Part shown: one piece after another, positions 6,771 through 44,936 of the stretch
Position numbering within the stretch: the stretch's first letter is position 1
How the letters are laid out: every line of letters starts with the position of its first letter
From: an uncultured Tolumonas sp.
GTDB taxonomy: Bacteria > Pseudomonadota > Gammaproteobacteria > Enterobacterales > Aeromonadaceae
DNA length: 64,000 bases
Assembly (NCBI RefSeq): GCF_963676665.1
Contig: NZ_OY781378.1
Span: forward strand, 712,001-776,000
Direction of reading: 5' to 3'
Translations under genes and position numbers: made by a program
The notes under the pieces: model-generated
Databases searched by the model: none
The model's input: the letters and a program-made list of their open reading frames with translations, nothing else
What the model was told of the DNA's origin: nothing

Positions 6771-6779
6771 GGAGCCAGC

Positions 6780-8123: not shown

Positions 8124-8172
8124 CTAATTAGGTCAGGTAGTTAATCGAAAACTAAAGAAAATAAAAAAATTC

Positions 8173-8199: not shown

Positions 8200-8272
8200 A
8201 TGAAGTAAGCAGGCAGTGATAACAAACTCAAGCCTGATTAATTCAAAATAGAAAGCCTTAGGAGAATCAATC

Positions 8273-9256: not shown

Positions 9257-9288
9257 ATATGGGCTAATTAACTTACTGGAGGCGGTTT

Positions 9289-9759
9289 ATGACAACTGGA
9301 TTAAACATAAATCTGTCGGCCAGCACCTCAGTGGTGGGAACAAATGATAAGAGCGGCCTTTCGGCCGCTCAGCCGCATTCTGTTTCTGCCTCAGTCGACA
9401 CTGCTGCGGTGCGTCAAACAGCCAAAAATGCTAATTATCCTTCCGCAGTGTCTGCCACAGAAAATATTTCAGAGCAGGATCTTCAAAAACAAAAAGATGC
9501 TCAAACAGCTGAGTTAAAAAAACAGGCTCAAAATTTGCAAGAGCTAAGTCAATTGAAAGGCTGGCGAGTCGATTTTACTATCGACCAAGACTTGAAAGAA
9601 ACTGTAGTAAAGGTAGTTGATACCGATACCAAAAAAGTGATTCGTCAAATGCCGAGTGAAGAAATGCTGGCACTCGCAAAACGAGTCAAAACCTTGCAAG
9701 AAAACGAAAATACCGGGGATAATGAAATATCGGGTTTGTTGTTTGACAGCAAGGCGTAA
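9289..9759 (+). CDS. flaG: FlaG family flagellar protein
   Basis: 156 residues. The C-terminal half (about residues 95-145) is the FlaG domain, with WRVDFTIDQDLKETVVKVVD followed by TKKVIRQMPSEEMLALAKRV. The N-terminal half is low complexity and Ser/Ala rich. FlaG influences filament length in several polar-flagellate bacteria; the mechanism is not settled. It sits between flagellin and fliD as in Vibrio and Aeromonas. A GC-rich hairpin lies inside its early coding region at 9351-9370. Confidence 0.92.
   Translation: MTTGLNINLSASTSVVGTNDKSGLSAAQPHSVSASVDTAAVRQTAKNANYPSAVSATENISEQDLQKQKDAQTAELKKQAQNLQELSQLKGWRVDFTIDQDLKETVVKVVDTDTKKVIRQMPSEEMLALAKRVKTLQENENTGDNEISGLLFDSKA
9351..9370 (+). repeat. 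GC-rich hairpin inside the 5' end of flaG
   Basis: GAGCGGCC (9351-9358) pairs perfectly with GGCCGCTC (9363-9370) across a 4-nt loop, about 95 nt after the flagellin stop. It has no T-run. It could protect the 3' end of the abundant flagellin mRNA or lower read-through into flaG-fliD; this is inference from position. Confidence 0.6.
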
Positions 9760-9787
9760 TTTTCTCTCATAAACAGAGGAAGAGATC

Positions 9788-12291: not shown

Positions 12292-12302
12292 TAGGATTAG
12301 TG

Positions 12303-14418: not shown

Positions 14419-14456
14419 AATGGTTGAAAATTATATTTTTCAGTTTTTCAACCATT
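14419..14456. terminator. Bidirectional terminator between maf and pseI
   Basis: A 12-bp perfect stem (AATGGTTGAAAA at 14419-14430 with its complement at 14445-14456) and a 14-nt loop, A-rich on the left and T-rich in the loop. It lies 2 nt after the maf stop and covers the last codons of pseI, so it can serve both convergent genes. Confidence 0.65.
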
Positions 14457-27700: not shown

Positions 27701-29152
27701 ATGATTATGGTGTCAACAATGATTGATTATCCAAAAGTGTCTTTGTTTGTTTTGTGCTATCAGCAAGCTGGTTATGTTGCTGAGTCAATTCACGCCGCTT
27801 TGTCACAAGATTACCCCAATCTGCAAGTTGTCATATCCGATGATGCATCAACAGATGAAACCTATTCAATAATTCGTAACATTGTTGACCAATATCAAGG
27901 TCAACATAGAGTCATCATCAATCGTAATGATAAAAATCTTGGCATCGGTTTTCATTTCAAAAAATTGATGAGTGAACTGGTCGATGGTGAGTTGATTGTT
28001 GCGTCGGCTGGTGATGATTTATCGGAGAGTAATCGCGTCAGTCGCATAGTTGAGGTGTGGTTGCTTAATGGAAAGCCAGATTTTATTGCTCATGGGCTGA
28101 CAGAAATCGATGAGAGGGGGAACCTATTTCCAAGCTCTCGAACTATTCAGTACCGTTATCAGCAGGATCCCAGCCAACTTTCGTCGCAAGAAAGACTACG
28201 AGCTTATATAGATAATCCTTATCCGTTGCCTTTCATAGGCGCGGCCGTTGCTTATCGAGCTGATCTTTATAGATTATATAGTTCTCCTGTTTTCCCTGCG
28301 CCATACGAAGACCATTTAATGTATTTCAGAGCTATTTTGGCTGGGCGTATTACTTACTTTGATGAGCCGTTAATAAAATATAGACGACATAGATTTAACT
28401 TCTCTGGAAATATGAAAGAGCATTCAAAAGCTGCATTGCATGATATTAGGCTTGGCTTGAACCGGATTAGTATTCCAGATTCATCGTCTGGTGAGTTGAA
28501 TTTACACCATTTGTGTTGTCAGCAGTGGTGCGATTATGTCACATCGGTTCATCTCGGCATCCATGGTCTGAACACAGCGATCGCGTCATCCCTATGGCAA
28601 CAATTAGAACTTCGTCATCAGGCGTTCGTTTGGAGTTTTGGCTCAACACTCTCTCGAGTTAACCAATTGCTTTCGGTGACTCGTCAATGGATATTTCGTT
28701 GGAAAAAAATAATTGCTGGCGAAATGGTAGCTGACTATTCTCCGGTAACTCACTCTTTATTGACTTACCTCCCAACAATGGAGTGTGTCATTTTTGGGGC
28801 TGGGCGGGCTGGAGAATTGACTTTTTTGAAGTTGCCAGCAGGAATTCGTATTAAAGCATTTATTGATAATGACAAAAATAAGCAAGGTAAACTTTTGCAT
28901 GGCATACCAATTTTCGCGGCAAAAGAAAGCATGTCACTCTTGAAATCAACCGACTGTGTTATTGTCGCCAGTATGTATTATCATGAAATAAAATCTCAAC
29001 TTATCGAAGAGCTTAATGTTCCTTGCGTGCGTATTGCTCGTTCGACACACGCTGATATTATCAATCCACCGCAGGATATGCTGGATCGCCCGCTGGCAAT
29101 TTTTTTATTAACTATCTCACTCTTACTTTTTGTTTGTTTATTGATTGTGTAA
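27701..29152 (+). CDS. GT2 glycosyltransferase with C-terminal Rossmann module and membrane anchor
   Basis: 483 residues. The N-terminal GT-A domain (about residues 10-240) has VSLFVLCYQQAGYVAESI and VVISDDASTDETY, typical of family 2. At about residues 360-440 it carries the same Rossmann module found at the N-termini of the two preceding proteins (VIFGAGRAGELTF, AFIDNDKNKQGK, VIVASMYYHEIKSQL). A hydrophobic C-terminal segment (about 463-483) may anchor it in the membrane. Start choice is uncertain: ATGs at 27701, 27707 and 27719 are in frame. It converges with the phosphonate operon and overlaps its last gene by 15 nt. Confidence 0.7.
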   Translation: MIMVSTMIDYPKVSLFVLCYQQAGYVAESIHAALSQDYPNLQVVISDDASTDETYSIIRNIVDQYQGQHRVIINRNDKNLGIGFHFKKLMSELVDGELIVASAGDDLSESNRVSRIVEVWLLNGKPDFIAHGLTEIDERGNLFPSSRTIQYRYQQDPSQLSSQERLRAYIDNPYPLPFIGAAVAYRADLYRLYSSPVFPAPYEDHLMYFRAILAGRITYFDEPLIKYRRHRFNFSGNMKEHSKAALHDIRLGLNRISIPDSSSGELNLHHLCCQQWCDYVTSVHLGIHGLNTAIASSLWQQLELRHQAFVWSFGSTLSRVNQLLSVTRQWIFRWKKIIAGEMVADYSPVTHSLLTYLPTMECVIFGAGRAGELTFLKLPAGIRIKAFIDNDKNKQGKLLHGIPIFAAKESMSLLKSTDCVIVASMYYHEIKSQLIEELNVPCVRIARSTHADIINPPQDMLDRPLAIFLLTISLLLFVCLLIV

Positions 29153-30274
29153 TGCTAACTGTTGGCTTCTTGTTATGATTGCTGAAATATCTTCTGCCGT
29201 TAGGTTCTGGATGAAGTTATCTGCCCGTTGAGGATTGAACATTTCGGATTGTAATGCTTCGATCTGACTCCAGCTGATATATTTTGCCAAACTGCTAAAT
29301 AAGGGCAGCTGTCTCAATATGCGTTGAGCCTCGAGTAGTAAATCTAATTCTTCATCGGGTAATAAATGGCCACGATGGATGCGCTCTATCAGTGCGGGCA
29401 GTGTAAAGCTACAGGCTATTCCATGCGGTACACCGTAGTGGCTGGTTAGTGGGTAGGAGATTGAGTGTGCAATCGCAGTTCTTGTCTGACTTATTGCTAG
29501 ACCGGCTAGTAAGCTGGCTTGTTGCATTTCCTCGCGGGCTAGCTGTTCTTCAGGTCTATGAAGCAGTAGTGGAAGTGCACGGCAAATTTTCTCGATAGCT
29601 GCCCTGGCATAGGCGCTGCTGATTGGCGTTCTGTGCTTGTTCCAGAGAGACTCCAAACTGTGTGACAACGCATCCAGGCCGCCACTGAGTGTTTCGCTGA
29701 TCGGCAGACTTAGTGTTAATTCGGAGTCCAGTAAAGCGAGGTCTGGATACATGAAATTGCCGGACAAGGAGTATTTGCTGTGGGTTGTTCTATCCCAAAT
29801 CGTGGCAAAAGGTGTTACTTCGGCTCCCGTGCCTGACGTTGTAGGTATCGTGATGAGTGGCAGGCGGCTATGCAAACTTATTTTTTTGTGTTCTCTAAAG
29901 TGGCTATGAAGAGGCTTTCCTACACTCGCCAGCGTGGGAATAATGGTTGCGAGGACTTTCGCAGTATCCATCACACTACCACCACCGAGAGCCACAATCT
30001 GATGGATGGACGTTATCTTCGCTACGCGGCTCGCCATCTCCTCGATGTCATCCAATTCAGGATTGGGGGTGACCTGATCTATGACCAATAGATTGAAGGC
30101 CGAGAGCTGGGAACAGATTTTGTCCGTGATTCCTCGTTTGGTAAAGCCTCTACTGGTGAGGAGGAGGATATTTTTCCCGTGAACAAACTCCGGCAAGCGT
30201 GAGAGTAAACCAGGAGCTGAGCTGACGTGCACTGGATGGTGATGTTGCCAGCTGATAGCGCTTTGATTATTCAC
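29138..30274 (-). CDS. Iron-type alcohol dehydrogenase, putative phosphonoacetaldehyde reductase
   Basis: About 378 residues from GTG 30274, which overlaps the decarboxylase stop by 8 nt; upstream in-frame ATGs (30388, 30349) would extend far into that gene. Family III Fe-ADH: ALGGGSVMDTAKVLA is the NAD loop, ITIPTTSGTGAEVTP the second signature, and GGLDALSHSLESLW plus IAHSISYPLTSHYGVPHG carry the metal-binding Asp and His residues. In phosphonate clusters such enzymes (PhpC/FomC type) reduce phosphonoacetaldehyde to 2-hydroxyethylphosphonate. There is no 2-AEP transaminase in the cluster, which supports the alcohol as product. Confidence 0.8.
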   Translation of the reverse strand: MNNQSAISWQHHHPVHVSSAPGLLSRLPEFVHGKNILLLTSRGFTKRGITDKICSQLSAFNLLVIDQVTPNPELDDIEEMASRVAKITSIHQIVALGGGSVMDTAKVLATIIPTLASVGKPLHSHFREHKKISLHSRLPLITIPTTSGTGAEVTPFATIWDRTTHSKYSLSGNFMYPDLALLDSELTLSLPISETLSGGLDALSHSLESLWNKHRTPISSAYARAAIEKICRALPLLLHRPEEQLAREEMQQASLLAGLAISQTRTAIAHSISYPLTSHYGVPHGIACSFTLPALIERIHRGHLLPDEELDLLLEAQRILRQLPLFSSLAKYISWSQIEALQSEMFNPQRADNFIQNLTAEDISAIITRSQQLALHNQ

Positions 30275-31388
30275 GGCAGTGTTCCATGAAAGCTCGTTTA
30301 TTCTGTGCTGGCGTTCCGGCAGGACGGCCCAGATTACTCCGCGAGCCATTGGCGATTCGAATTTCAAACATACTGGGGCCCTTAGCATCAGATAATTGAT
30401 TCCAGGCTAGTCGCAAGGTATCTGCGGAGTCAGCCTGAAAGTATTCTTGATATCCGAGTGCTCGGCTCAATGCCTGGAAGTCAATTTTTCCTGCCACCGT
30501 GGGTTGGCCACCTACAGATTCATGCGACTGATTATTTAGAATGATGTGTACCATGTTCCTGGCATGACTACTGCCGATAATCGCAGCCGATCCCATATGC
30601 ATAAGGAATGAACCATCACCATCAAGGCATAGCACGCGACGGTGGGGTTGAGCTAAAGCTACACCTAATGCAATGGAGGATGTATGTCCCATGGATCCGA
30701 CCGTCAGGAAATCCTGCTGCGTTTCATTTCGCTCGAGGCGTAACTCATACAATTCACGAGAAGTTTTCCCTGTTGTCGCAATAATAGCGTCTTGTGGGTA
30801 ACTCAATTCCAGCAAGGTACGAATGGCATCTTCGCGAATAAAAATGGAGTTATTCTCAGGTTTTGATACTGGCGTGTATTCGGCGAAAGTATCTTTCTGT
30901 ATCAACAATGCGACAGGAGCATTGAGACTGTGCAAATCAGCAACCGCCTTGTCGACAACATTAGCCATGTCACTCTGTGCATTCAGAACCTGAAAAGGAA
31001 TCCCCAGTTGCGTCAGCATCGCTGGAGTAATTCTTCCTTGTTTGATGTGTTGAGGTTCATCCTTTACATCTGGTTCACCACGCCAACCAATAATTAAAAG
31101 TGCAGGGATCTGGTAAACTTCAGGGTCGGTCAACGAAGTAACAGGGTTAACCAAATTACCGATGCCGGAATTTTGTAAATAAACAGCAGCAATTTTTCCA
31201 GAACCGAGATGGTAGCCAGCGGCCATAGCTAGAGCATTACCTTCATTGGCTGCAATGATGTGCTTATTTGCGGGTAAATTATCTGAAATGAAGGCACATA
31301 GATTTTTTAATAATGAGTCAGGGACACCGAGGTACATGTCTATACCGTGCTCTGATAAAGCATCAAAAAATTTATTAACCTGTATCAT
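30267..31388 (-). CDS. Phosphonopyruvate decarboxylase
   Basis: 373 residues, a compact ThDP enzyme in which the central TH3-type domain is absent, as usual for Ppd. The N-terminal Pyr domain has YLGVPDSLLKNLCAF and AANEGNALAMAAGYHLGSG (about residues 45-63, with the catalytic Glu). The C-terminal PP domain has CLDGDGSFLMHMGSAAI and IILNNQSHESVGG, the GDG-to-NN thiamine diphosphate motif. It converts phosphonopyruvate to phosphonoacetaldehyde, pulling the unfavourable PEP mutase equilibrium. It shares one base with the end of pepM (TAATG). Confidence 0.92.
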   Translation of the reverse strand: MIQVNKFFDALSEHGIDMYLGVPDSLLKNLCAFISDNLPANKHIIAANEGNALAMAAGYHLGSGKIAAVYLQNSGIGNLVNPVTSLTDPEVYQIPALLIIGWRGEPDVKDEPQHIKQGRITPAMLTQLGIPFQVLNAQSDMANVVDKAVADLHSLNAPVALLIQKDTFAEYTPVSKPENNSIFIREDAIRTLLELSYPQDAIIATTGKTSRELYELRLERNETQQDFLTVGSMGHTSSIALGVALAQPHRRVLCLDGDGSFLMHMGSAAIIGSSHARNMVHIILNNQSHESVGGQPTVAGKIDFQALSRALGYQEYFQADSADTLRLAWNQLSDAKGPSMFEIRIANGSRSNLGRPAGTPAQNKRAFMEHCRE

Positions 31389-32689
31389 TATTTTCCACCT
31401 GGAATAAGTTCAAGCACATCCTTGATGGACATCATGTCATTGTCAGCTTCAGCTGAGCGACCGTGCAATAAAATAGATTGAGCTGTTTTTACCATGGCAG
31501 GATAGGCACTCCGCAGAAGATGATTAGCGTAAATGACAATATTTACACCATGCTCTTCAAGCTCTTTCTCTGTCACGGAATTATAACTGGATGGTACAGC
31601 AACCAGGGGCTTACGGTTTTCTAGCTGGTTATAACGGCGGCAGAATTCAAAAACCTCATCGGGTGTTTTTTCCCGGCTGTGAATCATGATTCCATCTGCG
31701 CCTGCATTGAGGAAAGCCATCGCTCTTTCCATTGCATGATCAATTCCTTTGCCCAATATCAGACTCTCAATTCGAGCAATGATCATAAAATCTCGTGTTG
31801 CTTGAGCATTTTTTCCTGCTCTGATTTTAGCACTGAAATTTTCAATAGAGTCTTGTGTTTGTTCTACTTCGGTTCCGAAGAGAGAATTTTTCTTGAGGCC
31901 TGTTTTGTCTTCAATAATCACTGCAGAGACGCCGAGACGTTCTAAAGTTTTCACTGTAAATACAAAGTGCTCTGTTTTTCCACCGGTATCCGCATCATAG
32001 ATTATGGGTTTGGTGGTGACTTCCATTACTTCATTTAATGTAACCATACGGCAAGATACATCGACTGCCTCGATATCTGGTTTCCCTTTCGCTGTGGAGT
32101 CCGTCAGGCTACTTCCCCACATGCCATCAAATTCACGCGGACCATCGGATGTCATTATTTTGGTGTTTTCGATGATCAATCCGGACAATGCATTGTGGAT
32201 ATCAAGAAAGCGAACTATGGGCTTTGCTGCCAATAGTCGACGGAGGGATTTTAAGCGAATGTCTGGGGTGGTTCCGATCTCTTTCATCATGGTATGTAGT
32301 AATGATGAGGAGATGCCTTTGGTATATGGTACTTCAACGAGCTTACCATTCCATTCGGCTAATACATCGATGACTTTCTGTCGGGTTTCTTTTTGTACAC
32401 CATCTTTCCAGTCATCACCATGTACTACATAATCTGGTTTTAACTTCCGTAGATTGTCTGAGTAGCTGAGAGTTTCTTGTGGAATGACATGCTCAACGCC
32501 CTTTATATTTTCGACAACAACCTTCCGTTGCTCAAAGGTCATAAACGGAACGCGTTTGTAACTGGCGATTGCTGCATCAGTGAGCAACCCGACGGTCACT
32601 TCACCGAGCTCTGCGGCCTTATTCAGAATGTTCAGATGCCCCGGGTGGATCAAATCCGCACTCATGCCGACATAAACTGTAGTTGTCAT
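31388..32689 (-). CDS. PEP mutase fused to an N-terminal cytidylyltransferase (Fom1-like)
   Basis: 433 residues from ATG 32689 (GGAG about 6 nt upstream). Residues 1-130 are a nucleotidyltransferase: [17 protein letters not shown] with the HxGH motif at H15-H18, and [10 protein letters not shown] for the ISSS motif. Residues 150-430 are PEP mutase, with the diagnostic [10 protein letters not shown] at 260-269 (isocitrate-lyase relatives lack it) and [19 protein letters not shown]. The fusion matches Fom1 of fosfomycin biosynthesis, whose N-terminal domain makes CMP-2-hydroxyethylphosphonate. It makes the C-P bond and probably also activates the end product of its own operon. Confidence 0.92.
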
Positions 32690-33387
32690 ATCTACTCCAT
32701 GAAATTTTGGGTAACACTTTTTTGGATTGCTTGCCAGGCATCTTTTCAGGAAAGCATTCATCTGTGCGGTAATACGCTTACCGACTTGTATATGTAGGAT
32801 ACAAGTTTTTTATGGTTGAAGACATCGGATTGTGACCATCAGAGATGCGTGATATGAAGTTAGTTTGCTATGCCAACTGTGATTCTGATCTCATAAGGCT
32901 TGATGTGCCCCTTGATTTTTTCTGCAGTTAGCTGATGAGGTGGTCAATATAACCACAGATTGCTAAGGCCTGATCTTGAATGTACTTTTGATGGCTACTT
33001 GGCGGTGAAAACCGGCAGCCTTTTCCTGTCCAGATTCCAACCGCCAAGCTGACGCATATAGTCATCATGATAGACTGGCGTTCCCGAAAAACTGCACTAG
33101 CAGGGAGCATGTTTCTTCGTGGTAATCGTCATGCCGATTCATACATGGACAGTTTTCAATGACACAAGCGAGGACGGATCACAAAGGAAAAATATATGAT
33201 AATAGATAATGCTTGGGCGATGTTGTTGACTATATCGTGCGGTTTTTAAACAGCAAGCATAAACATGGTTCCAATGATTTTCTGAGTCCAGTAGAGTTAA
33301 ATATCGCTATCTCGACCGACTGGGATGTTTCTCGTTCACTTATGGTGATTCACATATCACTTTTGGGTACATAATCAGGCAGTATTT
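32690..33387. other. 698-nt intergenic region between the phosphonate and phosphoramidate operons
   Basis: No intact gene is visible. It must hold promoters for the divergent operons, but I cannot place them with confidence. A 9-bp inverted repeat CTTGGCGGT/ACCGCCAAG lies at 32998-33006 and 33040-33048. The right part (33061-33302) is a decayed IS3-family transposase fragment, listed separately. No ops/JUMPstart element is seen. Confidence 0.7.
33061..33302 (+). pseudogene. Decayed IS3-family transposase (OrfB) C-terminal remnant
   Basis: Two blocks in different frames read like the end of an IS3-type OrfB. Block 1 (33106-33159) gives SMFLRGNRHADSYMDSF, comparable with the family's SMSRRGxCYDNAxMESF. 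Block 2 (33216-33302) gives GDVVDYIVRFLNSKHKHG then SNDFLSPVELN, comparable with the YIxxFYNxxRRHxxxxxxSPxxFE ending. Stops (33160, 33207) and a frame change separate them. The terminal repeats are not recognisable, so the element is dead. It marks a past insertion at the junction of the two phosphorus cassettes. Confidence 0.72.
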
Positions 33388-34449
33388 ATGGATATCAATC
33401 AGGGTTTCAGGAAATTGGCTTTTTTTGTCCATACAGCGGAGATGTATCATCACTACAAATCTGTTTGGCGATTGTTGGGCCCGGATGGATTTGATGTTGT
33501 GTTGCATGGAACCGAAAGTGCTATGGCCGAGAGCCGTGCTTTGATTGGCGGTATGGGGTATAGCTGCCATGATAGTGCCGTCATCCTCAGCGCGGGGCAT
33601 TACTATGACGTGGTTGTATCTAATCACAGTTTGTTTACTTACGGTGAGCGACCACTAATTCAAGCGTTGGGACGGCGCCAGGTCCGTTTTATGTATGCCC
33701 TTGGTAAAGCCAAGCATAATTTTTCTGCTTGGAATCAGCATTATGATCTGATCCTCTGCTTTGGTCCATGGCAGGCTGAGCGAATGAAGGAGTGTTGTTC
33801 GGCTGTAACATTTCAGATGGGATATCCCCGCTATGATGATTATTTTAGACAGTCAGAACTTCAACATTTTTTACCAACAGATCTAGGTCTGGATCCAAAT
33901 AAAAAGACAGTGCTTTGGTTGCCAACTTGGCGTGGGCTTTCGTCGTTGCGTTTATTTTCTGATGCCATGTCAAATTTAATTAAAGATTACAACGTAATTG
34001 TTAAAACGCACCCACTGTCTGTAAGTGCGGAACCTGATGCGTTGAAAGTCCTTCAGCAATATCCATTTACCGCTGTAATTACTCATGTCTACGATAACTT
34101 AGATTTATTTCGCTGTGCTGATTTCGTCGTCTGTGATTATGGTGGCACGCCTTTTGGTGCCTTGTACCTAGATAAAAATTTGTTGCTGCTGAATGTACCT
34201 AATGCTGCGGCTAATGCGCTGACAGGAGAAAACTCACCAGATGTGGATCTGCGGCAGGATATTGTTTCTCTCGATGCCTCAGAGCGATGGAGAATATCTG
34301 AAATTTTACAAAACAAGGCGCTTTGGTCGGAGCAGGTCTCGAGCCGTAGCCGATTACGGCGCCGCTTTTTTTCAGCCAGCTATGGCTTTTCTGCAGAGCT
34401 AGCTGTGTTAGCGATAAAAAATATTAAAAACCTGATTAGGCAGGGATAA
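33388..34449 (+). CDS. TagB/F-like (CDP-glycerol glycerophosphotransferase family) transferase
   Basis: 353 residues, a GT-B-like protein of the CDP-glycerol phosphotransferase family: ILCFGPWQAERMKE, KTVLWLPTWRGLSSLRLF, YNVIVKTHPLSVSAEPD and LFRCADFVVCDYGGTPFGALYLDKNLLLL, the region with the conserved His and Asp/Ser residues. It is shorter than the 26179 protein and lacks the Rossmann module. It leads the + strand operon whose later genes make a CDP-linked phosphoramidate, so it is the best candidate in this operon for the final transferase; that is inference. It ends 2 nt before the kinase gene. Confidence 0.72.
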   Translation: MDINQGFRKLAFFVHTAEMYHHYKSVWRLLGPDGFDVVLHGTESAMAESRALIGGMGYSCHDSAVILSAGHYYDVVVSNHSLFTYGERPLIQALGRRQVRFMYALGKAKHNFSAWNQHYDLILCFGPWQAERMKECCSAVTFQMGYPRYDDYFRQSELQHFLPTDLGLDPNKKTVLWLPTWRGLSSLRLFSDAMSNLIKDYNVIVKTHPLSVSAEPDALKVLQQYPFTAVITHVYDNLDLFRCADFVVCDYGGTPFGALYLDKNLLLLNVPNAAANALTGENSPDVDLRQDIVSLDASERWRISEILQNKALWSEQVSSRSRLRRRFFSASYGFSAELAVLAIKNIKNLIRQG

Positions 34450-34451
34450 AA

Positions 34452-34973
34452 ATGGTTATTTGGTTGGTTGGAATGTCTGGTGCAGGGAAAAGTACAATTG
34501 GACGTAGTCTCTGTGCGAGTCTAAAGGAAGAACGTCCTCAGACAGTATTCGTTGATGGCGATGAAATACGGGCTATGTTTCGTCATGATCAGATTGCAGA
34601 TGCTTATTCGATCGCCGGGCGACGAGTCAATGCAGAGCGTATTCAATCACTTTGTCGCTGGTTGGATGGTCAGGGCATCGATGTGGTCTGCTGTATTCTA
34701 GCGATGTTCCCTGATATCAGCGCCAATAATCGGCAGATTTTTTCTGACTATCGGGAGATATTTGTGGATGTGCCTTTGTCTGTGTTGATGCAACGTGATG
34801 ACAAGGGTCTTTATCAAGCAGCTCTTTGTGGTCGTCAACCGAATGTCGTTGGGGTTGATATTGAATATTGTCCCCCTGTTGCTCCCGATCTCGTGATAAA
34901 CAATAGGTTTGATACCAAGTTATTGCTTGAATATGTTAGCCGCATTCGGCAGGTCTGTGGGCGAGGTCTCTGA
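34452..34973 (+). CDS. APS-kinase-like protein, putative cytidine diphosphoramidate kinase (Cj1415-like)
   Basis: 173 residues. The Walker A motif GMSGAGKST is at residues 7-15, followed by VFVDGDEIRAMF, a typical APS-kinase DGD motif, and NAERIQSLCRWL. True APS kinase would belong with sulfate assimilation genes, which are absent here. In Campylobacter jejuni the homologous enzyme Cj1415 phosphorylates CDP-NH2 on the 3' hydroxyl in phosphoramidate biosynthesis, and the other three enzymes of that pathway are encoded just downstream. It overlaps the next gene by one base. Confidence 0.78.
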   Translation: MVIWLVGMSGAGKSTIGRSLCASLKEERPQTVFVDGDEIRAMFRHDQIADAYSIAGRRVNAERIQSLCRWLDGQGIDVVCCILAMFPDISANNRQIFSDYREIFVDVPLSVLMQRDDKGLYQAALCGRQPNVVGVDIEYCPPVAPDLVINNRFDTKLLLEYVSRIRQVCGRGL

Positions 34974-35548
34974 TGCGTTATCCCTACTCAGAAGGTGATT
35001 TACTACAAACACCACAGCGTTATCACTATACCCCATTCATGGGGGATGAATTTATACAAGCGTGGCGAGCATCGCGAGAGTTCGCCCGTCAGCGCTTACC
35101 TGCTCCTGCGTTGCCTCCGGTGACCCCATGTATCTTGGCAAGTGCAGAGGATACTCTGTCGCTGCTGCAGGTGATGTGTCGTGCCTTACGGGGGGCTGTT
35201 GCGGAAACCGTTGACCAGGAGGTTGTTGACTACTGGTTGCTTCGGCTATTGAAAAAATTTGAAGTTAGTAAACATCTGCATGTTGGCTATCAGGCTCAGC
35301 CCCCGCATCCGCCACTGGCTGGAAGCAGATATCTCGCTATAGAACCTTACTTGTGGCTGGCAGAGTGCTTATCCCGGGCCTGGCAGCGTCAGTCAGCCGG
35401 TTATTTTCTGAGTGGATTACTCAAATTGAATGACACTCTCGTTTCACAAATTCAGCATCTTGATGCAGAACAGGGGGCTCATTTGGCTTGGCTCTTGAAT
35501 ATGGAACAGCAACTATTGAGTGAGTTGAGTTCGGAGATGGGTCTATGA
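34973..35548 (+). CDS. Uncharacterised protein in the phosphoramidate operon
   Basis: 191 residues that I do not recognise. No signal peptide, membrane segment or metal motif is obvious. It is rich in Leu, Gln and Ala and looks mostly helical in its C-terminal two thirds (QEVVDYWLLRLLKKFEVSKH, LWLAECLSRAWQRQSAGYFL, LAWLLNMEQQLLSELSSEMG). The first 20 residues are rich in Tyr and Pro. It is locked into the operon by a 1-nt overlap with the kinase and a 4-nt overlap with the formyltransferase, which suggests a dedicated role in the same pathway. Confidence 0.8.
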   Translation: MRYPYSEGDLLQTPQRYHYTPFMGDEFIQAWRASREFARQRLPAPALPPVTPCILASAEDTLSLLQVMCRALRGAVAETVDQEVVDYWLLRLLKKFEVSKHLHVGYQAQPPHPPLAGSRYLAIEPYLWLAECLSRAWQRQSAGYFLSGLLKLNDTLVSQIQHLDAEQGAHLAWLLNMEQQLLSELSSEMGL

Positions 35549-36267
35549 GGGCACAACGTCTAGTTCTGCTTTGTGGTCGTACGGTTCGTTCCTCCGTCTA
35601 TGTACAGGCGTTAGCAAACGCGAACATAGTTCCAGATGCGATTTTGGTATATGGCGATGGAGGGGGGAGGGTCCAGTCTACTCGACAGGTACAGGGCGTA
35701 ATGGTCAACGATCTATTCACTCCAGATCCATGTCGGGAGCTTGTAGATTGTCTCGATGAAGTGGAATGGCCCTATCAGGTTTGTTCTGCTCAGTCCCTCT
35801 CGGATCCGGCATTGCTTGGGATGCTGGAAGCTCTGACTCCTGAATTAGTGGTCTACTCAGGTTACGCTGGGCAATTGGTTCCGGCGGAATTACTACGTTG
35901 TTATTCGGTGTTGCACGTTCACTCTGGCTGGCTTCCGGATTATCGGGGTAGCACAACCCTATATTACCAGATCATTAAACAGGGAAGCTGTGCCGCGAGT
36001 GCCTTGTTGATTGATGAACGTATCGATACTGGCCCGATTTTGGCGCGGAAGCAGTATCCGCTTCCACCTCCTGGAGCGGATGTTGATTACCTTTATGACA
36101 ATATGATTCGTGCCGATCTGTTGGTGACCGTGCTGGCTCAGTGGCGGGCGGGGTTGCCGTGGGATCGGATATCTCAGCAAATGGACTCTCCGCCTTATTT
36201 CATCATTCATCCTCTACTCAAACATATGGCCCTGCTCGCCATCGATAAGCAGGAGAGAGCCTCATGA
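35545..36267 (+). CDS. Formyltransferase-family enzyme (PurN/Fmt fold)
   Basis: 240 residues. The C-terminal half carries the formyltransferase core: VLHVHSGWLPDYRGSTTLYY and DERIDTGPIL. In the family the catalytic triad is Asn-His-Asp; here His126 and Asp161 are present but the usual Asn position is His124, so activity may be altered. It could N-formylate an amino sugar of the glycan (dTDP-3-amino-6-deoxy sugars are known substrates of relatives) or another amine in this pathway. It overlaps both neighbours by 4 nt. Confidence 0.75.
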   Translation: MRAQRLVLLCGRTVRSSVYVQALANANIVPDAILVYGDGGGRVQSTRQVQGVMVNDLFTPDPCRELVDCLDEVEWPYQVCSAQSLSDPALLGMLEALTPELVVYSGYAGQLVPAELLRCYSVLHVHSGWLPDYRGSTTLYYQIIKQGSCAASALLIDERIDTGPILARKQYPLPPPGADVDYLYDNMIRADLLVTVLAQWRAGLPWDRISQQMDSPPYFIIHPLLKHMALLAIDKQERAS

Positions 36268-38660
36268 GTTTCTCGGCTCCCGATTTTAATTTTGGAACTA
36301 AATCTGAAACTCTGGCCCGCTTACAAACGAGGGTTAGCCGTTCGCAAATTCTCCCTCTTTATTATTTCACTGCCACTCAGTGGCTATACCAAAAAACTGA
36401 AATTCTTGTGGCCATCGCCGGTATGGATCATGGTGGCTGCGTAATCATCCGCAGTAGTGCTCAAAATGAAGACAGCCAATGTAATTCCATGGCTGGAGCT
36501 TTTACCAGCTGTTTGAATGTGCCTGCTGATAGTCAGTCGGAACTGAATCAGGCGATCGAACGTGTGATTGCCTCATTCGGGCTGCATCAACATGGAGAGA
36601 ATCAGATACTGGTGCAACCCATGCTCAGAGATATTCAGATGAGCGGGGTCGTGATGACCCACGATCTGGAGCATGGAGCTCCCTACTATGTCATTAATTA
36701 TGATGATGAAAGTGGTCTGACAGACACAATTACGGGTGGGGTCGGAATCCAGAAAACAGTATTGATCTACCGTGATACTGATCATCGTCTCGTGCGCTCA
36801 ACACGTATTCAGGCACTGTTGGCGGCATGTCGAGAGCTGGAGGAGCTTTGTGGGCTGGTGCCTTTGGACATCGAATTTGCTATCGATCGCAAAGCATGCG
36901 TTTACATTCTGCAAGTTCGTCGCATCACTCTTTGTAATACTTGGCATCCGGTCACTGAGCGGCGAGTTGCTCGGCAACTGGCCCATATTCGGCATTACCT
37001 TGAGCAAACCCTGCCTCCTCAGCGTGATCTATTTGGCGGTAATTCACTACTGGGGGTGATGCCGGATTGGAATCCTGCCGAGATCATCGGAACTATGCCA
37101 CGCCCACTGGCTTCATCTCTCTATCGTCTACTGGTAACCGATTCGGCATGGCGGGAGGCTCGAGCCAGGATGGGGTATTACCATCCCCGTCATCAAGTGC
37201 TGATGGTGATGCTGGGGCATCATCCCTATATCGATGTACGCAGCAGCTTCAACTCCTTTTTGCCAGCAGGTCTTGATGATGCGACGGGCGATCGTTTGGT
37301 CACTGCCTGGTTGGAACGGTTACGCGAACACCCAGAATGGCATGACAAGGTTGAGTTTGAGGTTGTGCAAACCTGTCTGGATTTTACCTTCGAAGCCGAT
37401 TCTGAGGTTCGTTATGCCGGATGTCTGACTCCCGATGCGTTTCAAACCTATCGACAGGCGCTGGGTGCATTGACGTGCCGCGCCATCGTCGGAGAGGGAG
37501 AGGGCTCGCTGGCATCTGCAATGGCGGGTATCCATGCGTGTGCAGTCGATCAAGAGCAAAGAGGGCCGATTAACAGCTGGCGAGCCGATCTGGTATCCGT
37601 CAAACGTCTTTTGATGGCGTGCCGTGAGTTCGGTACCGTTAACTTTGCGATCCTCGCCCGGCACGCCTTCATCGCCGAAGCGTTGTTGCGTTCCGCATGC
37701 CGTCGCGGAGCAATTTCTACGGAACGATTGCAGCTTTGGAAACAGTCTTTACATACGGTGACAACAGATCTCACCACGGATTACGCGGCTGTTTGTGCTG
37801 GAACACAATCTGCTGATCATTTTCTCGCCCGATTTGGTCATCTGCGTCCAGGGACCTATGACATTACGTCGCTGCGCTATGATGAGCGTCACGACCTGTT
37901 TGCGACCGCATCTGGATCGAATGGGCTGGAGTCGGTCCATGCGACGAGAGGTTTTGAGCTACAACCCGACGAAGAACAGGCGTTGCAGCGATTGCTGGAT
38001 GAACGAAGCTGGCCTGTTACTGCCGCAGGTTTGCTGGCTTACGCTGGCCAGGCTGTCCAAGCGCGAGAGTACGCCAAACTGATCTTCACCCGAGACTTAT
38101 CGGATGCGCTAGCTTTGCTCAACCGTTGGGGAGGAGAGGTTGGTCTGTCTCGGGAGGATCTCTCCTACCTGGATATATTCCAACTGCTGGATACTCTGGT
38201 TTCTCCGCTGCTGGATGATATCGACCGCGTCGTGTTAAATTGGGTAGACAAAGCCCGACATGAGCATCAGCAGGCCATTTCTCTGAAACTTGGCCATTTG
38301 ATTTCGGGGGCGGATGATGTGTTTGTCGTACCAATGCATCGCAGCCTGCCTAATTTTATTACGCAAAAGCGAGTGGAAGCCGAGGGGATATTGCTGCAGC
38401 AAGACACACCGGTCACTACGGCATTGCAGGGACGGATTGTCTGCATCGAGAACGCAGACCCCGGCTATGACTGGGTCTTCACGCGGGATATCGTTGGTCT
38501 GGTTACGCAATATGGCGGAGCCAATTCCCACATGGCCATTCGTTGTGCCGAATTTGGTATCCCAGCGGCTATTGGTTGTGGTGAGCAGTTGTTCAGCCGC
38601 CTGTTGCGCTGTCGGGGTATCGTCCTGAACTGTCAGGATAAGACAATTAATTTGGTGTGA
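36264..38660 (+). CDS. PEP-synthase-like L-glutamine kinase (Cj1418-like, phosphoramidate pathway)
   Basis: 798 residues. The N-terminal PEP/pyruvate-type ATP-grasp domain (about 1-230) has CVIIRSSAQNEDSQCNSMAG and FAIDRKACVYILQVR. A middle substrate domain follows, and a C-terminal swivelling phosphohistidine domain has TQYGGANSHMAIRCAEFGIP with His756. The PEP-binding TIM barrel of real PEP synthase is missing. C. jejuni Cj1418 has this architecture and phosphorylates the amide of L-glutamine, the first phosphoramidate step. The adjoining GATase and cytidylyltransferase genes, as in Campylobacter, support this role. Rifampin phosphotransferases share the domain plan and are the main alternative. 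Confidence 0.8.
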   Translation: MSFSAPDFNFGTKSETLARLQTRVSRSQILPLYYFTATQWLYQKTEILVAIAGMDHGGCVIIRSSAQNEDSQCNSMAGAFTSCLNVPADSQSELNQAIERVIASFGLHQHGENQILVQPMLRDIQMSGVVMTHDLEHGAPYYVINYDDESGLTDTITGGVGIQKTVLIYRDTDHRLVRSTRIQALLAACRELEELCGLVPLDIEFAIDRKACVYILQVRRITLCNTWHPVTERRVARQLAHIRHYLEQTLPPQRDLFGGNSLLGVMPDWNPAEIIGTMPRPLASSLYRLLVTDSAWREARARMGYYHPRHQVLMVMLGHHPYIDVRSSFNSFLPAGLDDATGDRLVTAWLERLREHPEWHDKVEFEVVQTCLDFTFEADSEVRYAGCLTPDAFQTYRQALGALTCRAIVGEGEGSLASAMAGIHACAVDQEQRGPINSWRADLVSVKRLLMACREFGTVNFAILARHAFIAEALLRSACRRGAISTERLQLWKQSLHTVTTDLTTDYAAVCAGTQSADHFLARFGHLRPGTYDITSLRYDERHDLFATASGSNGLESVHATRGFELQPDEEQALQRLLDERSWPVTAAGLLAYAGQAVQAREYAKLIFTRDLSDALALLNRWGGEVGLSREDLSYLDIFQLLDTLVSPLLDDIDRVVLNWVDKARHEHQQAISLKLGHLISGADDVFVVPMHRSLPNFITQKRVEAEGILLQQDTPVTTALQGRIVCIENADPGYDWVFTRDIVGLVTQYGGANSHMAIRCAEFGIPAAIGCGEQLFSRLLRCRGIVLNCQDKTINLV

Positions 38661-39295
38661 TACACATGAAGCGGATAGGCATCACGTTACGGACATGTCA
38701 GGCGGTGGGTTATCAAGAGGCCCGTGATGGGCTCGCTCGGGATTGGTATCGTTTTTTGCTGCAATTAGATTGGGGGTGGGAGTGGGTGTTGTTACCCAAT
38801 CTTGGTTCGCAGAGCGTGGCTTACGCCCAGGCACTGGGGGTCGAGGGGCTCATCTTAACTGGCGGTGAGGATCTCGGTTCAGACCCCCTACGGGACGAGA
38901 GTGAGTTTGCTCTGCTGGAACATGCCGTGAACCACCAGTGGCCGGTACTGGGCATCTGTCGGGGGATGCAGTTGATTCAACGCTTCTTTGGTGGCGAGCT
39001 GGTGATTGCGGGTGGTGACCATCATGTGGCAACTCGGCATTCAGTCTCTAAGCAACGGGCATTGCCATGGGGAGGTATGAGCGAGACATGGTGCTGTGAG
39101 GTCAACTCCTATCACGCCAACCGGATACCCTTACCGCTACCTGCCAGTTTGCAGACTCTGGTCGTCGATGCCGATGGTTATTGCGAAGCTTTCACCCATC
39201 AGCACATAAAGCTGGCTGGAGTCATGTGGCATCCTGAGCGTGAACTATTCTGCCATGAATTTGATCGGCAACTATGCCGATGGCTTTTTGAGTGA
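38657..39295 (+). CDS. Class I glutamine amidotransferase-like, putative gamma-glutamyl-CDP-amidate hydrolase (Cj1417-like)
   Basis: About 212 residues. The nucleophile Cys is in VLGICRGMQLIQRFFGG (Cys101 counted from GTG 38657) and the His-Glu partners are in VMWHPERE near residue 192. GLILTGGEDLG is the oxyanion-side loop. It stands alone, with no synthase partner, which fits a hydrolase of the gamma-glutamyl-gamma-aminobutyrate hydrolase type. In C. jejuni, Cj1417 cleaves glutamate from CDP-L-glutamine to give CDP-NH2. The start may be GTG 38657, overlapping the kinase stop, or ATG 38666. Confidence 0.8.
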   Translation: MIHMKRIGITLRTCQAVGYQEARDGLARDWYRFLLQLDWGWEWVLLPNLGSQSVAYAQALGVEGLILTGGEDLGSDPLRDESEFALLEHAVNHQWPVLGICRGMQLIQRFFGGELVIAGGDHHVATRHSVSKQRALPWGGMSETWCCEVNSYHANRIPLPLPASLQTLVVDADGYCEAFTHQHIKLAGVMWHPERELFCHEFDRQLCRWLFE

Positions 39296-39301
39296 GGTGA
39301 T

Positions 39302-40066
39302 ATGCAAGCCATAATTTTAGCGGCCGGGCGAGGTTCCCGGCTTGGTACCATGACCGAGAACCAACCCAAACCGCTGGCAAAGTTGGCTGGTAAGCCGTTG
39401 ATTGAATGGCAGTTGGCATCGCTAGCCGCGGCAGGTGTCCACAGTGTTCATGTGGTTTGCGGATATTGCAGTGAAGCCCTGCAGGGCTACGGTAACAGCC
39501 GAATCATGAACGCCAACTGGGCTAGTTCTAATATGGTCCGCAGCCTGATGTGCGCTGATGCTGTGCTATCGGTGGAGCCGACTCTTGTCTGTTACGGGGA
39601 TGTTGTCTATCGCCCTGGGATCATCAGAACCTTGATGGCATCTGATGCGCCACTAGCCACCAGCTACGACAAAGAGTGGTGGTCACTCTGGTCGGCCCGG
39701 TTTGATGATCCTTTATTGGATGCTGAAAGCTTCCGACAGCAGGGTGGTCAATTGATCACCATCGGTGAACGGGTTCAGGCTCGAGAGGAGATCGAAGGGC
39801 AATATATGGGGTTGTTGAAGTTCACCCCTGAGGGCTGGCAACGAGTGTCTGCGGTGTTAGCAGGACTCAGCGCCGAACAAATCAACAAGCTGGATATGAC
39901 CAGCCTGCTGCGCCTATTGCTGTCTCAAGGTGTTCCCATTGCGACGGTTGCTATCTCTGGTGGTTGGGTTGAAGTGGATAATCCATCCGATATTTCCTTG
40001 TACGAACAACGGATCGCCGAACCTGGCTGGAGTCATGATTGGCGATCCGATGATCTGCCAATCTAG
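39302..40066 (+). CDS. Nucleotidyltransferase, putative CTP:phosphoglutamine cytidylyltransferase (Cj1416-like)
   Basis: 254 residues with the LicC/MobA-type nucleotidyltransferase fold: IILAAGRGSRLGTMTENQPK at residues 4-23, the PKPL Lys, VCYGDVVYRPG with the metal-binding Asp, and GGWVEVDNPSDISLYE near the C-terminus. LicC-like enzymes activate phosphocholine or phosphonates with CTP. In C. jejuni, Cj1416 joins CTP and phosphoglutamine to CDP-L-glutamine, and the flanking gene set here is the same. It ends the operon and overlaps the convergent methyltransferase gene by 4 nt. Confidence 0.8.
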   Translation: MQAIILAAGRGSRLGTMTENQPKPLAKLAGKPLIEWQLASLAAAGVHSVHVVCGYCSEALQGYGNSRIMNANWASSNMVRSLMCADAVLSVEPTLVCYGDVVYRPGIIRTLMASDAPLATSYDKEWWSLWSARFDDPLLDAESFRQQGGQLITIGERVQAREEIEGQYMGLLKFTPEGWQRVSAVLAGLSAEQINKLDMTSLLRLLLSQGVPIATVAISGGWVEVDNPSDISLYEQRIAEPGWSHDWRSDDLPI

Positions 40067-41280
40067 CGATAAATCTGCTTCGCTCGTTCCAGATCGAATG
40101 TTCTACATGCGGTTGGCTCATGAGCCAACCGCCGTTTCAATATAACGAACAGTTTGTCAATATCGACCAACGGAATAAATTTCTTTGTCATATAGTAATC
40201 GACGACTTCGAAATATTTTTCGACTACATCAAATTTTTCGTTCAAGTCACCATCATCACCCACATTACCGCTTCCTGGGCCAAATACATTATGGCTTTCA
40301 AAGAATAAGTAACCATCAATATCGAGCAAGTTAAAACATTTAGCTATATATTCTTCAAAGTTTATCGATAAATTGCCATCGATCGTGCAATGATTAGCAA
40401 GCGAAAATATGGCTTGATATTTTTTGTGTGTTGCATATTCACAAAAATCTAACTGATGAAAATTGATATTTTTTATTCCAAGTTCTTGTTGTGTTCTTTT
40501 AGCAATAAGATTCAGGTAAGGATTGAACTCGATAGCATCGACATGATTTATTTGTTTAGCTATTTCCATACTAAAAAAACCGCTATTCGAACCTATATCA
40601 AGTACTTCATCATCTGGGGATAGATACATCTCGATTCGATAACGACTGAGGCGTTCCTCGGTCGGTTTTGCTCCCGAAATACCTATTTTACTCAGTCCTT
40701 GATAGGGATACCCTGAAACATAGCTGAAATTCCAAGTCTTGAGTTGTTGAGTGCAGATTGAAAATATATCGTTGTGCAGTGGTATGTATTCTGGGTGTAT
40801 AAAAAATGCTACCAACAAATCTTTAAATAAATAAAATTGGCGCAATCTAGTAAATGCGTTGGCTCTGCTCAACTCCTCATCAGCCATTTGCCTCAATAAA
40901 GGTATAACTTTTTTATTTCTATATTCCGGGTTTTCTGTTTTTTTTTGCCATTCCAGATAATCATTTTGGCTAGAAAGATCGGGAAGCCATTTTTTGTTGG
41001 CAAAAAAATGTATTTTCTTTGACAGTTCATTATCCACATCATCCATCAAAAGTGAAAACCAATGTGGCGCGGAAAATAGCGTAGCCGTCAGTTTGTTCCA
41101 AGTGTCAAGAAACGTATTAAAAGAGATATTTTCCTGCTCAACTCCCCGGAGCTTTTCAATCAAGCAGATCTGGTTGTTGTCGTATTCACGTTTGTGGCGC
41201 TCGGCTATTTTTAGTAGCAGTTGAAGTATGTTCATCGCAGTCTCTGGTTGCAGGTCGTGTGATGTAGAGGACGTGTTCAT
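40063..41280 (-). CDS. Class I SAM-dependent methyltransferase with long N-terminal region
   Basis: 405 residues. The SAM-binding core is at about residues 215-330: SPDDEVLDIGSNSGFFSMEI (motif I), HVDAIEFNPYLNLIA and HQLDFCEYATHKKYQAIFSL. The first 200 residues are helical and match nothing I recognise. It is AT-rich and convergent with the phosphoramidate operon. A role in O-methylation of the phosphoramidate (as MeOPN in Campylobacter) or of a sugar is possible but not shown. An alternative start is Met16 at 41235. Its 3' end contains a 24-nt perfect palindrome. Confidence 0.75.
   Translation of the reverse strand: MNTSSTSHDLQPETAMNILQLLLKIAERHKREYDNNQICLIEKLRGVEQENISFNTFLDTWNKLTATLFSAPHWFSLLMDDVDNELSKKIHFFANKKWLPDLSSQNDYLEWQKKTENPEYRNKKVIPLLRQMADEELSRANAFTRLRQFYLFKDLLVAFFIHPEYIPLHNDIFSICTQQLKTWNFSYVSGYPYQGLSKIGISGAKPTEERLSRYRIEMYLSPDDEVLDIGSNSGFFSMEIAKQINHVDAIEFNPYLNLIAKRTQQELGIKNINFHQLDFCEYATHKKYQAIFSLANHCTIDGNLSINFEEYIAKCFNLLDIDGYLFFESHNVFGPGSGNVGDDGDLNEKFDVVEKYFEVVDYYMTKKFIPLVDIDKLFVILKRRLAHEPTACRTFDLERAKQIYR
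40109..40132. repeat. Perfect 24-nt palindrome at the 3' end of the methyltransferase gene
   Basis: GCGGTTGGCTCA at 40109-40120 is followed directly by its exact reverse complement at 40121-40132. It lies 40-70 nt from the ends of two convergent genes and may act as a bidirectional transcription stop, though there is no T-run. Confidence 0.75.
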
Positions 41281-41304: not shown

Positions 41305-43493
<2,189 letters not shown>

Positions 43494-43649: not shown

Positions 43650-44936
43650 ATGCCGGATATTTTTATACAAAACCTCGCACTACTTGAAAAACGTTGGCCT
43701 TCTTTGGCTGATCTGTTACAGCAGGAAGCGGCAGAGCTGAATGTAACCTTAGTTAAAGGGCTATCGTCAACACTATCGGTTGATGGTATTCAGCTCTCTA
43801 GCCGGCATGACCGTATTAAAGAAGCATGTCAGCAAATGCTCTCGATCCCCACAGTACCTGAAATTCATCTGTACGGAATCGGGCTTGGCGATCTCCCTCG
43901 TGAACTGTTGAAACGTGCTGAATTACAAAAACTTCACATTCATGTTCTTAATGAGTCTTTGCTTGGGTTGATACTTCATTTACTTGAACAAGATGATTGG
44001 TTGGCAGACCCACGCGTAACATTACACATAGCATCAGAATATAAAGAAATTCAGCTACCATTTTTTGCTATTCCGGCAGAACTGTTTTTGGCTAGTGATG
44101 GCAATGCTAAAATTCGAGACCGGCTAGTGGCTGAAATTGAACAGCCGTATGTTAATCAACGCTTTAACCCCCAAAATACAGAGCTTTTGGATCGAATAGA
44201 GCAAAATATCTCATTGTTAGAATTAGATCCTGATGTTGCTACGTTGTTTGACTCTTACAACGGGAAAGAGGCGTTTGTACTGGCGTCTGGGCCCTCTTTA
44301 GAACTTCATTACTTAAAGTTGCTAGAAATTAGAAAACGGCAAGATCGCCCTGTATTTATCGCACTTGATACAGCGTTGCGCCCCTTGATGGCTAACGGAA
44401 TTGAACCTGATTTTGTTATTAGTATTGATCTACTTATTACGTCTAGCCATTTTCCAAACCTAATTCCAGACACGATCAAGCTGATCTATTTTCCCTTATC
44501 TCAAAATCAGACCCTGATAAGTTGGCATGGAAAACGTTATGCTGCTTATTCGAAAAGCTCTATTTATGATGAAGTTTATCAACGTTTCCCCAAAGCTCGT
44601 TTTTACTCCAGTGGTAGTGTATTGCATCCCGCTGTTGATTTTGCAGTACGTCTTGGAGCTAAAAGTATTACCTTATTTGGTGCAGACTTCAGTTACCCAC
44701 GAAATAAAACCCATTCAGGCTGGGAGAGTGGTGTCTTAGGTGAACCAGTCGCTGCAGCAAAACACTGGGTACTGAACGGCGATGGAGTGCGAGTCAAAAC
44801 TTTGTTAAATTTTCGCAGTTATCTTTGTGCGTTAGAACGCTATATCGCCCATCATCCTGAAGTGCAATTTTATAATTCCAGTCGTATCGGTGCTTTCATT
44901 GATGGAACCCTTTTTCATCCGGAGTTTGTAAAATGA
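43650..44936 (+). CDS. Motility accessory factor (Maf), putative flagellin glycosyltransferase, copy 2
   Basis: 428 residues, shorter than the copy at 12303. The MAF_flag10/DUF115 core is at about residues 180-380: GKEAFVLASGPSLELHYLKL, GIEPDFVISIDLL, and SITLFGADFSYPRNKTHSGW. It is probably a cytoplasmic transferase that puts Pse or a derivative on flagellin Ser/Thr. It sits on the far edge of the island, divergent from pseB, and overlaps the next small gene by 4 nt (ATGA). Confidence 0.87.
   Translation: MPDIFIQNLALLEKRWPSLADLLQQEAAELNVTLVKGLSSTLSVDGIQLSSRHDRIKEACQQMLSIPTVPEIHLYGIGLGDLPRELLKRAELQKLHIHVLNESLLGLILHLLEQDDWLADPRVTLHIASEYKEIQLPFFAIPAELFLASDGNAKIRDRLVAEIEQPYVNQRFNPQNTELLDRIEQNISLLELDPDVATLFDSYNGKEAFVLASGPSLELHYLKLLEIRKRQDRPVFIALDTALRPLMANGIEPDFVISIDLLITSSHFPNLIPDTIKLIYFPLSQNQTLISWHGKRYAAYSKSSIYDEVYQRFPKARFYSSGSVLHPAVDFAVRLGAKSITLFGADFSYPRNKTHSGWESGVLGEPVAAAKHWVLNGDGVRVKTLLNFRSYLCALERYIAHHPEVQFYNSSRIGAFIDGTLFHPEFVK

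Follow-up and report, generated by a model that had tools for sequence, protein, structure and literature searches.

A putative phosphoramidate cassette with an alternative finishing module in a flagellar island of an uncultured Tolumonas species

Does the gene cluster at 34452..40066 of a Tolumonas genome fragment encode a complete phosphoramidate pathway, and what distinguishes it from the capsule pathway of Campylobacter jejuni? The fragment (the window) is a 64,000-nucleotide stretch of contig NZ_OY781378.1 (assembly GCF_963676665.1, positions 712,001 to 776,000) from an uncultured Tolumonas sp. The first-pass annotation regarded the cluster as a complete cassette for phosphoramidate (N–P bond) synthesis outside Campylobacter, in which two extra genes suggested a modified version. 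There is a real and coherent pathway at this locus; its novelty lies in the variant formed by the two extra genes, X and F, and not in its occurrence outside Campylobacter.

The six open reading frames (ORFs) K, X, F, G, A and C are co-oriented and overlap by 1–4 nt or are separated by a 6-nt gap; both coordinates and family matches agree with the overlapping run described earlier. Four of them appear to supply, in one operon, the enzyme types needed for activated phosphoramidate: a glutamine-kinase-like protein (G), a class I glutamine amidotransferase (GATase)-like hydrolase (A), a LicC-like cytidylyltransferase (C) and an adenylyl-sulfate (APS)-kinase-like nucleotide kinase (K). In C. jejuni, as the accessible part of the source states, four such enzymes make cytidine diphosphate (CDP)-phosphoramidate 3'-phosphate from glutamine, ATP and CTP (PMC11800397). 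Completeness holds for the four enzyme types but not for the methyltransferase (M) found beside most such cassettes, which is absent here and in place of which X and F are present.

We suppose, with slightly better than even confidence, that the cassette makes a phosphoramidate donor which is finished by X and F and moved by the product of the preceding gene, P, to a flagellar or surface glycan. G would phosphorylate the amide nitrogen of glutamine, C would join the phosphorylated glutamine to cytidine monophosphate, A would take off glutamate, leaving CDP-NH2, and K would phosphorylate the 3' position of the nucleotide, after which P would carry the phosphoramidyl group to the sugar. In the finishing step X and F would replace M, with K altered alongside. 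We infer each of these reactions, as well as the role of P.

The four core enzymes and their distribution

G matches NF004508/PRK05849 across nearly its full length (1004.7 bits; cut-off 501), a family of which we take Cj1418 to be a member. It combines a PPDK_N domain with a C-terminal PEP-utilizers (phosphohistidine) domain, the domain search found no phosphoenolpyruvate (PEP) barrel in it, and the histidine of its GG-x-x-SHM motif (His756 in the window) is unchanged in 12/12 aligned rows. Its identification as a PEP synthase (44.6 bits to TIGR01418, cut-off 739.75) or a rifamycin phosphotransferase (29.5 bits to NF041857, cut-off 999), both foreseen in the first-pass annotation as adverse outcomes, was rejected.

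For A, the nearest curated family is NF045546 (gamma-glutamyl-CDP-amidate hydrolase; 92.5 bits, runner-up 49.6), which speaks against the feared relationship to unrelated GATases, though the score lies under the equivalog cut-off of 250, as do those of five relatives (86–126 bits). Its triad C101/H192/E194 is unchanged in 73/73 rows. C adjoins the set as a LicC-like cytidylyltransferase, an assignment made by Pfam, by the top PDB match (LicC, 1jyk) and by invariant residues of catalytic type (G9, G11, R13, P22, K23, D100, E224 and D226, unchanged in 79/79 rows). The low score of A and the placement of C only as LicC-like by Pfam and PDB would fit an alternative in which G, A and C make another CDP-linked donor (CDP-linked glutamine or another amide), while K, X and F yield a product without a free P-NH2. 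We consider this quite improbable, since the three proteins have invariant catalytic residues, are linked across many taxa and represent the C. jejuni enzyme types.

The best curated family of K is PRK05541 (138 bits, cut-off 127), named adenylyl-sulfate kinase by NCBI, and K scores 100.5 bits against the CysC equivalog TIGR00455. Both facts, together with residues R57 and N60, which match CysC, would be expected of a second APS kinase giving 3'-phosphoadenosine 5'-phosphosulfate for sulfation, the genes then not forming one pathway. This is highly improbable in view of a separate true CysC elsewhere in the genome (237.6 bits versus 99.1 for K), which answers the objection of a true APS kinase raised at the outset; moreover, K remains under the TIGR00455 cut-off of 138.7, the CysC Phe is replaced by Val or Met in 14/14 kinases of the X/F type, and K accompanies G-A-C in 71/80 loci and in all loci with X.

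Occurrence outside Campylobacter had been presented as a novelty, which has to be given up: our data indicate a wide distribution of the enzyme set among bacteria, not restricted to Campylobacter. Proteins over the PRK05849 cut-off occur in 8/120 genomes of relatives and 15/398 genomes of the phylum (own genome counted in both), tblastn with the window G matched 14/72,556 plasmid records, and a pattern scan of the genomes of 84,980 species gave at least 589 stretches, at least 572 of them encoding relatives. By title, the best 80 of these at least 572 belong to Clostridia, Proteobacteria, Acidobacteria, Spirochaetes, Verrucomicrobia and others, and none of these 80 records is titled Campylobacter. 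Within 6 kb of G in the 80 loci, many of which lie on short contigs, profile hidden Markov models made from these loci detected A (79 loci), C (77), K (71), M (62), X (4) and F (4); the loci were ranked by likeness to an M-type kinase, so the M form is over-represented. Among the 51 loci with at least 5 kb on each side, 42 contain A-C-K-M, 4 A-C-K-X-F, 1 A-C-K, 3 A-C and 1 A. The order G-A-C-K, present in some relatives (e.g., L094), would match Cj1418-1417-1416-1415 when the gene numbers are followed downwards.

The accessible text of a review treats enzymatic P–N bond formation on glycans chiefly as a feature of Campylobacter and speaks of the “C. jejuni-specific glutamine kinase” (PMC9561416). 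Orthologues of cj1416-1418 are given for 13/30 Campylobacter strains in the part of another source that is open (PMC3907429). An exception is a 2025 paper in which a figure legend attributes genes for O-methyl-phosphoramidate and phosphonate to an archaeal Borg element (PMC12660748). Further published statements on a wider spread were not recognised in the openly accessible literature that was searched.

The distant relatives of G are diverse. In L020, L022, L041, L043, L045, L050, L052, L054, L078 and L080, mechanical ORF calls give proteins of about 970–1070 aa; the N-terminal extension of 200–250 aa in L020 and L022 has no Pfam match, and a fused APS kinase was rejected for these two. In the Azospirillum plasmid locus L021, an 838-aa protein beside the cassette (5633-8149) carries an APS-kinase-like domain at residues 658–801, and its long N-terminal part could be a transferase. 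Allorhizobium pAtS4e (L023) possesses a split kinase, a GATase and a cytidylyltransferase with no APS-kinase-like gene annotated; its neighbours are LysE family translocators, a CDP-alcohol phosphatidyltransferase, an asparaginase and a gene related to aa-tRNA ligases, and this locus might be concerned with a small molecule. Divergent kinase relatives on Cupriavidus and Microvirga plasmids (L024, L025) have no adjacent ORF labelled GATase or cytidylyltransferase, the former lying about 7.5 kb from nifK, and relatives about 33% identical occur on contigs labelled phage or viral (L026, MT837632; L158, IMGVR_UViG_3300027864_000720).

X and F in place of the methyltransferase

At the level of sequence, X and F stand in place of M in the window-type cassettes. 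M is an S-adenosylmethionine (SAM)-dependent methyltransferase of about 250–260 aa which presumably caps the group as O-methyl phosphoramidate. It co-occurs with X/F in 0/102 loci, and its profile matches nothing in the window or in any of the 14 loci with X (L012, L018, L060, L061, L066, L074, L126-L132 and L157) even at E 1e-3. In the window and these loci, X and F occur together in 15/15 cases, and so does the whole set of K, X, F, G, A and C; in L066 an additional 263-aa gene with no match to M lies between F and G. Searches with X alone (own genome included) were positive in 2/369 genomes of the class, 8/298 of Pseudomonas and 2/398 of the phylum. These sets overlap in part, and the matches come from 11 distinct genomes. 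Three of these (the own one, G120 and G121) were already represented in the X alignment; in the eight new genomes the whole set lies beside X in 8/8. Natural fusions join X to F in one reading frame in L126 and K to X in L157. The earlier suggestion of a modified version is thereby given a definite form: X/F exclude M and compose, with K, an alternative finishing module.

K changes along with this module. In a quick tree of 68 rows (L157 left out), one branch splits 14 kinases of the X/F type from 54 kinases of loci without X/F (Shimodaira–Hasegawa-like approximate likelihood ratio test, 100), and N60, I64, W70, D72, I82 and L83 are specific for the former group; N60 is found in 13/14 of them, and CysC has Asn there, unlike the other cassette kinases. 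Having changed along with X/F, K probably uses a nucleotide already modified by X/F or is specific for the precursor of that nucleotide.

The phylogeny of G is different. In a tree of 98 proteins (long branches flagged), the distribution of the X/F label implies 4 changes, and starred branches force at least 3 of them. The first X/F-linked group is window-like and also includes the M-carrying L019 (support 94); the second, composed of Pseudomonas flagellar loci, is nested beside the M-carrying L079, L094 and L056; the third is the Verrucomicrobia L066 kinase, placed beside L085 (no M) and L069 (M). The X/F-type K represents one clade, whereas its G partners belong to three lineages or more, which gives K-X-F the look of a finishing module that can be swapped for K-M. 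The Pseudomonas locus after flgL illustrates the two states: it is occupied by K-M in L079 and L094 and by F-X-K-P together with the methyltransferase gene m (see below) in L060, L061 and L074. DNA identity between the window and L012 is 91.6% over 34452-40139, an interval that opens with the K start codon and runs 73 nt beyond the stop of C, and 76.6% for the neighbouring pse genes. All six cassette genes look to be under purifying selection, with dN/dS of 0.09–0.27 in the same pair (Nei–Gojobori; 0.22 for X).

X gives zero matches in Pfam, NCBIfam, PHROGs and PADLOC, has a structure model with a mean predicted local distance difference test (pLDDT) score of 73, and had no homologue found in viral contigs. 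F has the formyltransferase fold (PF00551), in which the canonical Asn-x-His...Asp triad is replaced by His-x-His...Asp in 7/7 aligned rows and the active-site loop reads HSGWLPxYRGSTT; four other formyltransferases of the same genome, an ArnA-sized protein included, retain Asn-x-His. The likeliest chemistry of F would be one-carbon transfer from 10-formyl-tetrahydrofolate to the nitrogen of P-NH2, giving N-formyl phosphoramidate, with X as a partner. In this way X, a protein of no family, and an altered formyltransferase gain a specific and testable role. The full proposal, an N-acyl phosphoramidate (formyl or another folate-derived one-carbon group) placed on flagellin through a two-part X/F system that swaps with K-M, is speculative, and we think it unlikely in this exact form; we know of no organism with such a group or the enzyme reaction forming it.

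The fold of F would also fit an ordinary donor, phosphoramidate without modification, with X/F working at another point of the glycan that receives it; F might, for example, formylate an amino sugar. Amino-sugar genes do occur near X loci: an acetyltransferase and a DegT aminotransferase in L060, L061, L074 and L127-L129, DegT in L132, and a pseF-like gene beside L066 and L126. The acetyltransferase/DegT pair was, however, not found in L066 or L126. The mutual exclusion of X/F and M argues against the amino-sugar explanation, as do the fusions of X with K and with F; the ArnA-sized protein of this genome keeps Asn-x-His, unlike F, and to our knowledge sugar formyltransferases retain this motif. 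In C. jejuni, phosphoramidate is reported both with and without the methyl group in the accessible part of the review (PMC9561416), which would allow an unmodified donor. Altogether, we hold the amino-sugar explanation to be possible though doubtful.

Several observations weigh against a phosphoramidate donor finished by X and F. K may have another acceptor than the proposed one, because PRK05541 carries the adenylyl-sulfate kinase name and N60 is shared with CysC; A and its five relatives are below the NF045546 cut-off; and the likeness to the C. jejuni set was drawn from family models, not from direct comparison with C. jejuni proteins. In F, residues 129–138 of the active-site loop are poorly modelled (pLDDT <50), and the Asn-to-His change could mean that formyl transfer is lost or that another reaction has arisen. 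L019 carries M though its G groups with the window G. Between the window and L012, the dS of K is 0.55 versus 0.19–0.33 for the other five genes; given this greater divergence of K, the likeness may stem from several exchanges, and the six genes need not have travelled together. The neighbour counts, besides their bias towards the M form, were obtained with profiles derived from the same loci which they scored, and L060/L061, L128/L129 and window/L012 are near-copies. Finally, the candidate transferase P is missing from 4/14 X loci.

Candidate transferase, surroundings and target glycan

The unit extends beyond 34452..40066, since P and the opposite-strand gene m recur beside part of the related cassettes (Table 1). 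P ends 2 nt before K, so that P-K-X-F-G-A-C (33388-40066) is a run of seven same-strand genes between a flagellar block and pseBC; this agrees with the flagellar or surface-glycan setting proposed initially.

Table 1. Cassette genes and surrounding features of the window
Feature	Description	Coordinates	Strand	Match or basis
P	PF04464 (TagF/CDP-glycerol glycerophosphotransferase-like), 353 aa; candidate phosphoramidate transferase	33388..34449	+	PF04464 1e-12
K	Nucleotide kinase resembling APS kinase, 173 aa; would phosphorylate the 3' position of CDP-phosphoramidate or its X/F-modified form	34452..34973	+	APS_kinase 4.6e-28
X	191 aa, without known family, predicted all-helical	34973..35548	+	
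F	Formyltransferase-fold protein, 240 aa, His124-x-His126...Asp161	35545..36267	+	
G	Glutamine-kinase-like, 798 aa; ATP-grasp half and, at the C-terminus, a phosphohistidine domain with His756	36264..38660	+	PRK05849
A	Hydrolase of the class I GATase type, 212 aa (triad C101/H192/E194); putative gamma-glutamyl-CDP-amidate hydrolase	38657..39295	+	
C	Cytidylyltransferase resembling LicC, 254 aa; phosphoglutamine as proposed substrate	39302..40066	+	NTP_transf_3 2.3e-18
m	SAM-dependent methyltransferase, 405 aa, much longer than M	40063..41280	-	Methyltransf_31 1.4e-8
Exchange unit	K-X-F-G-A-C	34452..40139	+	DNA identity to L012
pseC + pseB	Pseudaminic acid genes, context	41305..43481	-	85% and 76% identical to L012 cassette-side pair
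pseI		14440-15480		497 bits, over cut-off
Flagellar ORFs	Hook, filament and flagellin	389-11536		Identified by reading their sequences

A homologue of P (E 1e-5) is present in 10/14 X loci (absent from L012, L066, L126 and L157) and in 1/89 other loci, and H208-P209 and D250-Y251 are unchanged in 12/12 sequences; more distant PF04464-type proteins lie beside L020 and L022. A precedent for P as a transferase may be seen, by analogy, in Clostridioides difficile, where the TagF-like CD0244 and the LicC-like CD0242 are needed for the phospho-part of the flagellin glycan and CD0244 is proposed to transfer it, according to the accessible part of the source (PMC10714395). A family with a median length of 571 aa and a Rossmann-like N-terminus lies near the kinase in 33 loci that lack X/F (L031, for example); it is a candidate transferase of the methylated group and also occurs in one X/F locus (L018), perhaps through a shared N-terminal domain.

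The gene m is a recurrent, not obligate, companion of the cassette. Its homologues occur beside the cassette in L060, L061, L074, L128 and L129, more weakly in L039 (without X/F), and were not found in the remaining X loci save L018, where the gene (237-1078) is split over several reading frames and looks broken. At E 1e-3, m does not match the M profile.

The flagellar glycan is the likeliest target here, as we infer from the position of the cassette. Six X loci, all of Pseudomonas, lie directly behind flgK-flgL; no flagellar genes were found in the stretches examined for the seven other X loci tested, and a flagellar gene is also present in 15/76 other genome-contig loci. The window shares luxE/luxC-type genes with L018, and such genes mark group II flagellar islands of Aeromonas in the accessible text of PMC7874193. 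The “+80, +14” increments on N-acetylhexosamine of Aeromonas AH-3 flagellin, in which the authors read +80 as phosphate (same source, accessible part), were not used in support of phosphoramidate.

Another set of genes in the island (29138-32761, minus strand) looks like CMP-hydroxyethylphosphonate synthesis: a PEP mutase with a fused N-terminal cytidylyltransferase (398.7 bits, over cut-off), a phosphonopyruvate decarboxylase (446.1 bits, over cut-off) and an iron alcohol dehydrogenase (TIGR03405, 350.8 bits, under the cut-off of 423.7). C–P and N–P chemistry may hence share one island. P as a partner of these genes is less likely, as it recurs in X loci in whose examined stretches no PEP mutase was found (E 1e-10). 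Two proteins, one at each end of the island (12300-14417 and 43650-44936), weakly resemble PseD, a flagellin modification protein (67 and 41 bits; cut-off 670). A PADLOC search gave zero matches at E 0.001, and PHROGs matches are limited to unnamed families and to general families of kinases, formyltransferases and GATases (best 3.9e-14). Promoter-like sites number 6 versus 9.8 expected and terminator-like ones 12 versus 7.2 (sd 2.8), from which we take no inference.

Comparison with known systems

The survey indicates that the enzyme set exists across bacteria with at least two interchangeable finishing modules. The replacement of M by X and F suggests that the window-type cassette provides a flagellar or surface sugar with a related chemical group that has not been described so far. 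Hand-calculated mass increments to consider on flagellin are +78.98 (phosphoramidyl), +93.00 (O-methyl) and +106.98 Da (N-formyl), which might otherwise be assigned to “phosphate” or “methyl phosphate”.

Among the systems close to the window are the M-type cassettes (e.g., L013-L017, Azospirillum L021 and Smac51 L019), which have K and G with a GATase and a cytidylyltransferase nearby; they differ in that M is present, X/F are absent and K is outside of the X/F clade. F differs from the superfamily of glycinamide ribonucleotide (GAR) transformylase, Fmt and ArnA, which has Asn-x-His, by its His-x-His and the loop given above.

The C. difficile Type A (CD0241-0244) and Pseudomonas aeruginosa PAO1 b-type (PA1088-1091) systems resemble the window by combining LicC-like, TagF-like and methyltransferase proteins. 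In both, a CDP-activated phospho-group would be placed onto a flagellin sugar, the activities being the authors' hypotheses in the accessible parts of these papers (PMC10714395, PMC11833859). Their glycans contain phospho-threonine, not phosphoramidate, and these parts describe no kinase/GATase set of the window type; PA1088-PA1091 was rejected as a G-A-C match, being a phospho-dimethylthreonine set.

The O-methyl phosphoramidate system of C. jejuni (Cj1415-Cj1418) shares with the window the four enzyme types and their position in a surface-glycan locus; Cj1419 and Cj1420 have no assigned function in the accessible part of the source (PMC11800397). Unlike it, the window has X and F instead of a methyltransferase, a K of a separate clade and a PF04464 candidate transferase, and its cassette lies in a flagellar/pseudaminic acid island, whereas that of C. 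jejuni serves the capsule.

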